In this document: in pieces, positions 1 through 1,331 of the stretch | How positions within the stretch are numbered: position 1 is the first letter of the stretch | How the letters are laid out: every line of letters starts with the position of its first letter | NCBI GenBank assembly: GCA_028282805.1 | Contig: JANQHD010000027.1 | Span: forward strand, 1 to 64,000 | DNA from: Phycisphaeraceae bacterium | GTDB taxonomy: Bacteria > Planctomycetota > Phycisphaerae > Phycisphaerales > Zrk34 | Length of the DNA: 64,000 nt | Reading direction: 5' to 3' | Notes under the pieces: generated by a model | The model's database searches: none | Seen by the model: the letters and a program-made list of their open reading frames with translations, nothing else | Told to the model about the DNA's origin: nothing | Position numbers and translations under genes: made by a program

Positions 1-60
1 GAGCGTGCCTTGTTCGCCGAGGCCGCGATGAAGGTGCTCACCTATGCCATCCGGCGTTAG
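1..60 (+). CDS. 3' end of an unidentified gene (partial)
   Basis: An open frame enters from the left edge in frame 1 and stops with TAG at 58-60. Its last 19 residues end in AAMKVLTYAIRR. The following recombinase starts 66 bp downstream on the same strand, so this is probably a neighbouring gene of the same integrated element. Too little is visible to name it. Confidence 0.4.
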   Translation, partial: ERALFAEAAMKVLTYAIRR

Positions 61-126
61 GCAAGGCCCCGCAAGACGGAATGGATTCTACTGAGCAGAA
101 AGGTATCGAAACGCCAAGCGGAATCG

Positions 127-1293
127 GTGTTGTTGAAAGTCGAAGACTTGGCTGCGGCAAACGTTACGGGTGCGGCTCCTCGTCGTAGCACATCAGCTTG
201 GCTCGCGGGTATCGGCGATGAATTGCACGACAAACTGGCTAGGGCAAGCTTGGTGCAGCCTCGTGCGGATCGGAGTTCGGTTCAGCTTGGGTGTTTCACG
301 TCTGAGTACATTGAAAGCCGTACCGATGTGAAGCCGCGAACAGTGACGAACCTTAAGCGGGCAGCTAAAGCATTGGTCGATTACTTCGGCGAAGACCGTC
401 CGATTACATCGATCACAGCGGGTGATGCCGAAGACTACCGCTTGCATCTTCTGGGCAAGGGGCTGTCTGAGAACACCGTCCGCCGCATGTGTGGGCGAGC
501 TCGCCAGTTCTTCCGCGTGGCCGTCAAACGCAAGCTCATCGACCAGGAACCATTTGCAGATATTCCTTGCAACGTTGGAGCGAACGAATCGCGACGGCGC
601 TACATCACACGTGATGAAATTGAACACGTATTGCACGCGTGTCCTGATGCAGAGTGGAGAATGATCTTCGCACTAAGCCGATATGGCGGGTTGCGTTGTA
701 CCTCGGAGCACTTGGAACTGAGATGGGGTGATATTGATTGGGACCAAGAACGCATCACAGTACGCAGCCCGAAGACTGAGCATCACGAGGGCAAGGACTT
801 ACGTGTGATACCGTTGTTCCCTGAATTGAAGTCGTATCTGCTCGAGCTCTTTGGGGAATGTGAGCCCGGAACCGAGTACGTGATAAACCGCTACCGGCAT
901 CGCGAATCGAACCTAAGAACTCAGGCCTGCCGTATCATTCGCCGTGCGGGTATCGAGCCTTGGCCAAAGACGTTTCACAACCTGCGGGCATCTAGGCAAA
1001 CAGAGTTGTGTGAGACGTTCCCGCTGCACGTCGTTTGTGCTTGGATAGGTAACAGTCAAGCGATTGCGGCGAAGCATTATCTGCAGGTGACCGATGAGCA
1101 CTGGTCGCGTGCAACTGCTGGACAAGCGCTGCAAAATCCGGTGCAGCATACTGCTGCAGAAAGCCGCAACGAGTCGCAAGGCGAAACAGAGGTGGAGTCT
1201 GAAGTTCAGTCGGTGCAGTCGTTTGCAGATGAATGCAGTTCGATGCATGCGCAGCCAATACCCCCCGCAGGACTCGAACCTGCAACCCGCTGA
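127..1293 (+). CDS. Tyrosine recombinase / phage-type integrase
   Basis: This 388-aa protein is a tyrosine site-specific recombinase. An N-terminal SAM-like DNA-binding domain (about residues 55-160) precedes the catalytic domain. Visible catalytic residues are Arg190 (YGGLRC), the beta-hairpin Lys in SPKTEH near 216, His284 and Arg287 (FHNLR), and Tyr318 (KHYLQ). The usual GHS histidine is Asn (IGNS), a tolerated variant. GTG at 127 is the first start in frame. The C-terminal peptide PPAGLEPATR is simply the antisense of tRNA-Lys read through to TGA at 1291, so gene and attachment site overlap. It should integrate and excise the element extending leftwards. Confidence 0.9.
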   Translation: MLLKVEDLAAANVTGAAPRRSTSAWLAGIGDELHDKLARASLVQPRADRSSVQLGCFTSEYIESRTDVKPRTVTNLKRAAKALVDYFGEDRPITSITAGDAEDYRLHLLGKGLSENTVRRMCGRARQFFRVAVKRKLIDQEPFADIPCNVGANESRRRYITRDEIEHVLHACPDAEWRMIFALSRYGGLRCTSEHLELRWGDIDWDQERITVRSPKTEHHEGKDLRVIPLFPELKSYLLELFGECEPGTEYVINRYRHRESNLRTQACRIIRRAGIEPWPKTFHNLRASRQTELCETFPLHVVCAWIGNSQAIAAKHYLQVTDEHWSRATAGQALQNPVQHTAAESRNESQGETEVESEVQSVQSFADECSSMHAQPIPPAGLEPATR

Positions 1294-1331
1294 TTAAGAG
1301 TCAGCTGCTCTACCGATTGAGCTAGGGAGGT
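1259..1331 (-). tRNA. tRNA-Lys (CUU)
   Basis: The minus strand folds as a complete 73-nt cloverleaf. The acceptor stem pairs ACCTCCC with GGGGGGT and the discriminator is A. The D arm is TAGCTCAATCGGTAGAGC. The anticodon stem GCTGA/TCAGC encloses loop CTCTTAA (anticodon CTT), and the T arm contains GGTTCGAGTCC. CCA is not encoded. Its 3' half overlaps the recombinase gene and is the likely att site. Confidence 0.95.

Follow-up and report, generated by a model that had tools for sequence, protein, structure and literature searches.

Integrases that split their own genes are described in PMC8371274 as exclusively archaeal. In these SSV-type systems (SSV1, SSV2, pTN3 and pT26-2) the attachment site of the element (attP) lies within the integrase gene, and integration splits that gene, leaving an N-terminal part on one side of the cut and the catalytic domain on the other (PMC8371274). 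Mycobacteriophage BPs carries attP in its repressor gene and uses a tRNA gene as attB (PMC9262239); upon integration, the repressor is shortened at its C terminus and changes its state, being stabilized by the loss of an ssrA-like tag. In tRNA-targeting genomic islands in general (Islander, PMC4383910), the target tRNA is regenerated at one end of the island, and a displaced fragment lies at the other. Here, we analyzed a stretch of 64,000 nucleotides (the window) from a Phycisphaeraceae bacterium (assembly GCA_028282805.1, contig JANQHD010000027.1, positions 1 to 64,000 of the forward strand), at the left end of which a tyrosine integrase gene reads into a tRNA-Lys gene. Sequence comparison with its relatives strongly indicates a family in which attP lies inside the integrase reading frame and integration exchanges a conserved C-terminal domain (CTD) of the enzyme for residues encoded by the host. 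The best overall explanation of the window, and one that we consider very probable, is that it holds the tRNA-side end of an integrated element with attP in its integrase frame, which was later broken by an insertion sequence (IS). Among the titles and opening lines of abstracts in the open-access literature, we recognized no bacterial integrase of this layout.

The integrase remnant occupies positions 98–1293 on the plus strand, and its first usable in-frame start is the GTG at 127. The encoded protein gave Pfam matches to Phage_integrase (1e-13) and Phage_int_SAM_5 (1.4e-9), with the PF00589 match spanning residues 159–325. The residue set R-K-H-R-W/H-Y is the catalytic signature of tyrosine recombinases, and all of it is present in the catalytic region (685–1080, plus strand) in the form of GGLR (R190), SPKT (K216), HNLR (H284 and R287), W306, and HY (Y318); with the PF00589 domain, this identifies the window open reading frame (ORF) as a tyrosine recombinase. 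A variable linker defined by alignment (1132–1256, plus strand), which corresponds to a low-confidence and presumably disordered region in the model of a full-length relative, connects the catalytic part to a predicted attachment (att) core (1257–1278, plus strand). The placement of this core follows the repeats seen in 37 relatives, described below; it runs from the tRNA 3′ end to the T-loop, ending in GGACTCGAA, and its codons 1258–1278 read IPPAGLE, where crossover is expected.

The target, tRNA-Lys(CUU), was called by ARAGORN at 1258–1332 on the minus strand and is complete in the occupied state, and a tRNA-Leu(UAG) called at 1457–1540 on the plus strand is a neighbor that marks the conserved chromosomal site. 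An earlier reading of the window made from its letters alone (the sequence-only reading) had placed the integrase stop inside this tRNA-Lys and assigned the last ten residues of the protein, PPAGLEPATR, to the tRNA 3′ half. Both assignments stand: the stop, TGA at 1291–1293, coincides with bases 34–36 from the tRNA 3′ end, and codons 1261–1290 lie within its 3′ half. Given a predicted repeat core of approximately 1257–1278, only P-A-T-R and the stop (1279–1293, plus strand) would derive from host tRNA sequence outside the repeat, and this host-tRNA-encoded end of the integrated form would, judging from the relatives, be replaced by a CTD in the excised circle. The GC content is 0.53–0.58 in 500-base windows up to position 1500 and 0.61–0.76 in those from 1501 to 12000, confirming the lower value reported at the element. 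That the acquisition was recent, as had also been proposed, is not demonstrated, and the IS insertion suggests that the window copy is already decaying.

Of 392 genomes searched from the phylum to which the window belongs, 182 gave matches, the window's own genome included and many of them distant. We examined 49 loci, of which 48 were chosen from the matches, mostly strong hits on large contigs, and one (L224) was added as it concerns the same tRNA-Lys. At 43 of them, the integrase ORF runs across the 3′ end into a tRNA or transfer-messenger RNA (tmRNA) gene that lies on the opposite strand. The targets are of 14 kinds, namely Val (15 loci), Leu (7), Met (4), Gln (3), Glu (3), Ile (2), and Arg (2), with single loci for Phe, Ala, Ser, Asn, Tyr, Lys, and tmRNA. 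The presence of the same layout at so many of these chosen related loci argues that the entry of the ORF into the tRNA is not due to chance. The frame in which the T-loop is read is also uneven, with a distribution of 34:7:2 among the 43 (chi-square p of ∼1e-9 when relatedness is ignored), and the 34 read GAA as a codon, mostly within G[LF]E. At the tmRNA locus (L092:19156–19508, minus strand; identified with Rfam), a 29-bp repeat was found together with a CTD of 28.2 bits 35 kb away. At L056, L057, L064, and L130, the integrase ORF reads through the whole tRNA and stops beyond it. A search of phage and plasmid collections with one family integrase as the query gave no match at 1e-10, and a scan of genome contigs with the window protein yielded one relative only, in Planctomycetes bacterium TBK1r.

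In 37 of the 43 loci, the tRNA 3′ end recurs as a distal repeat 4.6 to 71.6 kb away (E-value of up to 0.01). The repeat starts between −3 and +2 of the tRNA 3′ end in 26 of the 37 and ends between +12 and +28, around the T-loop, in all of them, and in 35 the stop codon of the integrase falls outside the repeat, within the host tRNA. At L058 and L127, this stop is an in-frame TGA of the host tRNA, and the distal copy reads CGA. Distal repeats of 67–85 bp that extend into the 3′ coding part of the integrase were seen at L062, L063, L074, L087, L093, and L131, where it looks as if a related element adjoins or once adjoined.

When the integrase frame was continued across the repeat, as it would be in the excised circle, it led into a conserved extension of ∼60 residues with the consensus GGAESGA...D..L...V..W..LS...R..I. 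Scored with its own row left out of the profile, this CTD was found in frame in 26 of the 37 elements (14.5–74.7 bits), and none of the 74 readings in the other two frames reached 14 bits. Eight of the 26 (L063, L064, L072, L073, L074, L075, L092, and L224) were never part of the profile. A first version of the test on 32 elements had given 21 at 14.5 bits or more, with a maximum of 10.2 bits for control segments within the islands. Neither Pfam nor NCBIfam gave a family that matches the CTD, and hits to PHROG and PDB sequences had E-values of 0.05 or worse. In L067, L069, and L072, a GGA-x-SGA-like motif occurs just behind the catalytic tyrosine helix and again where the CTD begins, a pattern that resembles a partial gene duplication.

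Uninterrupted versions of the gene were found in virus contigs, in a scan that covered the best 80 of 98 relatives. In eight of these loci, which represent six distinct integrases, a single ORF continues through an att-core-like stretch into the CTD (L139, the gene of which is also labeled L138; L145 and L146, identical; L150, the weakest; L154 and L156, identical; L163; and L169), and the same eight loci match at an independent E-value (iE) of 1.1e-4 or better when the virus row, L138, is taken out of the profile. Six further viral loci (L158, L162, L164, L179, L181, and L182) gave an iE of 0.037–0.76 over ∼12–15 residues and were not counted. The free form L154 and the integrated form L162, the latter in a tRNA-Ser, share 82% DNA identity as far as GGGATTCGAACC and diverge exactly at the T-loop, from where the sequence of L154 goes on to the CTD and that of L162 to the tRNA-Ser. 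In the neighborhood of L146, two of four tested proteins match phage exonuclease families. The idea that the CTD is an unrelated small gene was discarded because uninterrupted integrase-CTD genes exist.

Taken together, the in-frame CTD across the repeat, the uninterrupted genes, and the pair of free and integrated forms point to an attP inside the integrase gene. The simplest competing account is an ordinary overlap, in which the integrase merely ends near attP, runs into the tRNA in an accidental frame, acquires a meaningless tail, and has unrelated genes at the far end of its island. Integrases beside tRNA targets are commonplace, the host-coded tails vary in length, and four of the ORFs read through the whole tRNA, all of which would suit such an overlap, and yet we consider it highly improbable in the face of a CTD that follows the distal repeat only in the integrase's own frame, six distinct uninterrupted genes, and the bias of the T-loop frame. 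The sequence-only reading had proposed that excision alters the C terminus and thereby couples the form of the integrase to its integration state. At the level of the family this is supported by repeats that end before the stop, CTDs encoded by the circle, and natural uninterrupted genes; for the window copy, which the IS has cut, neither the repeat nor the CTD was found.

With attP inside the gene, the free form would encode one protein that has a strand-and-helix part at its N terminus and continues through the catalytic domain and a linker containing the attP core to the helical CTD of ∼60 residues. The attP core would correspond to the tRNA 3′ end up to the T-loop, mostly read ...G-[LF]-E.... 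Recombination in the tRNA 3′ arm would split the integrase gene such that the catalytic part stays beside the tRNA and ends on residues of the host tRNA (PATR-stop in the window), and the CTD would be stranded at the other end of the island without its gene. Excision would restore the full integrase gene. It is a distinct possibility, if one short of probable, that the full-length enzyme of the free form integrates and the enzyme without a CTD, made in the integrated state, excises, with or without helper factors, in which case the form of the protein would report the state of the element. It is also possible, though less likely than not, that this is a self-splitting bacterial family in which the rearrangement makes two isoforms, full-length only when free and CTD-less with a host tail only when integrated, and in which this change sets the direction of recombination.

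An AlphaFold2 model of the uninterrupted L139 protein had a mean predicted local distance difference test score of 84 and is confidently that of a recombinase, with Foldseek returning the Tn1549 integrase (6en2), archaeal XerA (5hxy), and lambda integrase (1z1b) as the best matches. The overall fold of the model is thus like that of these three enzymes, whereas the CTD and the internal attP are features of the present family. Residues 399–460, a stretch of very low confidence, hold the att core, and two C-terminal helices are modeled at 458–472 and 477–492. Within a linker that is presumably disordered, an att site may burden the protein only to a tolerable degree. A quick version of the tree, from which L082 was left out, groups the window protein with L139 (uninterrupted), L055 and L127 (CTD found), L056, L057, and L060, with a support value of 90 in the Shimodaira-Hasegawa-like approximate likelihood ratio test.

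Many archaeal SSV-type integrases target tRNA genes, and an attP inside the integrase frame is common to them and to the present family, the hosts of which are bacteria rather than archaea. The position of the cut differs: here it falls in the linker behind the catalytic tyrosine, leaving the N-terminal part joined to the catalytic one and removing nothing but the helical CTD. Phage_integr_3 (PF16795), named for the archaeal SSV-type integrases in PMC8371274, was absent from the Pfam matches of the window protein (E up to 0.001) and of four full-length relatives (E up to 1), all of which match PF00589 and PF13102. A bacterial “suicidal” integrase would require the CTD for any activity; the split enzyme would be dead, exit would depend on another full-length integrase, and the CTD would act as a lock against re-excision. 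The same reading has been given for the archaeal SSV-type, pTN3, and pT26-2 integrases in PMC8371274, the integrated tails look unselected, and the long repeats that include integrase 3′ coding sequence hint at related elements stacking at one site, which makes helpers plausible. Even so, it seems somewhat unlikely for this family, because, unlike in archaea, the catalytic motifs and the N-terminal part remain together in the split gene, and because, in many of the more distant relatives from viruses, the protein stops shortly behind the catalytic tyrosine and has no CTD, so that the catalytic core is probably independent of the CTD as such.

The comparison with BPs bears on a further explanation, in which the CTD would be a degron or a self-inhibitory domain and its removal on integration would leave a stable or active integrated-state enzyme. 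PMC9262239 gives the same logic for the BPs-type repressor and states that the BPs integrase also bears a tag, and a few CTDs do end in small residues (for example GGAA in L069). In BPs, however, attP lies in the repressor gene and an ssrA-like tag is lost, whereas here attP would lie in the integrase gene and a conserved domain would be lost. The ∼60 residues predicted to be removed contain a conserved part modeled as a pair of helices with the pattern D..L...V..W..L....R..I rather than a terminal tag, and the C-terminal residues of the CTD are not conserved. A switch of stability or inhibition therefore appears unlikely. With regard to tRNA-targeting islands in general, regeneration of the target tRNA at one end and a displaced fragment at the other are shared with the present elements, the differences being that here the integrase ORF enters the tRNA and the frame of the circle crosses the repeat into a conserved domain.

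Several observations weigh against an attP-in-frame architecture or its generality. The 49 loci were chosen and are not a random sample, some being from the same genome (such as L062 and L063), and in six of them (L054, L060, L077, L078, L082, and L132) no tRNA was called within the integrase ORF, Rfam finding nothing in the 20-kb loci of L060, L077, and L132. The distal repeat was not found at 6 of the 43 loci, and the minus-strand control gave a repeat at one of the 43 (L224). Behind the repeat, a CTD at 14 bits or more was not found in 11 of the 37 elements (L061, L066, L079, L080, L085, L086, L087, L088, L089, L091, and L131), some of which may be decayed, diverged, or assigned wrong repeats. 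The CTD profile was initially assembled by eye, and carriers of the CTD are unclustered on the quick tree, requiring 26 changes against a shuffled mean of 28.4. For six of these virus records the genome search gave no end class, and the circularity of the free forms is not established. A search of the whole window assembly gave no convincing CTD (best E of 0.17). The number of host-encoded residues beyond the repeat ranges from none to 59, which argues against a specific role for the tail itself. The tail as a functional peptide was rejected, since its portion beyond the core is host-encoded and variable.

The absence of a CTD and a distal repeat for the window copy has to be seen together with the damage to this copy. 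Window base 1 is the start of the contig (C6 of the assembly), and bases 1–97 (plus strand) are the right end of a multicopy IS that ends in GGATTCTACTGAGCA at position 97 and contains an ORF end with its stop at 58–60, presumably that of the transposase. These 97 bases recur at five other contig ends of the assembly. Five of the six IS right ends pair with five left ends via 9-bp target duplications, and that of the window is the only one without a left-end partner. By analogy with the five other copies and from the alignment, GAAAGGTAT at 98–106 is presumably the right copy of a 9-bp target duplication, the partner of which is absent from the assembly. In the alignment, GAAAGGTAT begins in the codon of the conserved Gly of the family motif RLG-KVSKR (RLGKVSKR), and the junction at this Gly means that ∼30 N-terminal residues have been cut off; they correspond to three strands with which the modeled protein of a relative begins. 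Since bases 1–97 are an IS end, the integrase gene is N-terminally truncated and does not genuinely start at 127. We infer that the window copy is a damaged member of the family that had the same architecture before the IS inserted. With the IS in its N-terminal coding part, it is probably immobile on its own.

The assembly yielded neither the left flank of the window IS copy nor, with it, the remainder of the island. The second tRNA 3′ segment that the sequence-only reading had expected to the left of the window did not materialize: the window begins at the contig start, and a search of the assembly with positions 1259–1278 gave three other places, each with 3 mismatches and none better. The window integrase thus adjoins an intact tRNA without a far-end fragment in its own assembly. 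The multicopy IS has the ends TGCTCAGTAGAA and GAGCA, with 9-bp target duplications, and also occurs at the ends of contigs C7, C20, C28, C31, C41, C46, C47, C48, and C51, where it breaks the assembly. A fragment of another family integrase (36% identical over query residues 6–124) is located at G000:C17:17827–18177 in the window genome.

In close kin of the window organism, the same tRNA-Lys was found both with and without an integrase. A genome of the same genus (G392) has the tRNA-Leu/tRNA-Lys pair (L222) and no integrase match in the 2.4-kb locus, a result of the check for an empty site that the sequence-only reading had proposed. In a genome of the same family (G396), the pair is again present and the same tRNA-Lys is entered by a different integrase (L224, 39.6% identical). 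A 42-bp repeat (97.6%) lies 12.9 kb away in G396 and is followed by a CTD of 37.9 bits. In Planctomycetes bacterium TBK1r (CP036432.1), the integrase ends in a tRNA-Arg and a 15-bp copy (E of 0.019) is found 11.4 kb away; directly behind this copy comes a CTD match (E of 0.0029) that is the best one on its strand within 113 kb of sequence. The TBK1r genome contains further CTD-like fragments (L267 and L269); in L269, the fragment follows the peptide QWALRDS, which resembles an att core read in another frame. Elsewhere in the window, ARAGORN called a tRNA-Ala(ggc) of 85 bases with its anticodon at position 31 at 23249–23333, possibly a false call, and a second tRNA-Ala(ggc) at 37355–37428.

The consequence of the overlap between ORF and tRNA is larger than first proposed; its functional reading is tentative, and the case for the architecture at the level of the family, built on sequence, is strong. 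As judged from these sequences, the cut in this family spares the catalytic domain, unlike that of the archaeal self-splitting integrases, and a catalytic domain that is kept whole would offer a natural means of coupling the form of the enzyme to the state of integration. The layout recurs across one bacterial phylum, at many tRNAs and at tmRNA. It would account for the G[LF]EP-type peptides at the C termini of some integrases, and the orphan CTD would provide a route to mapping the ends of their islands.
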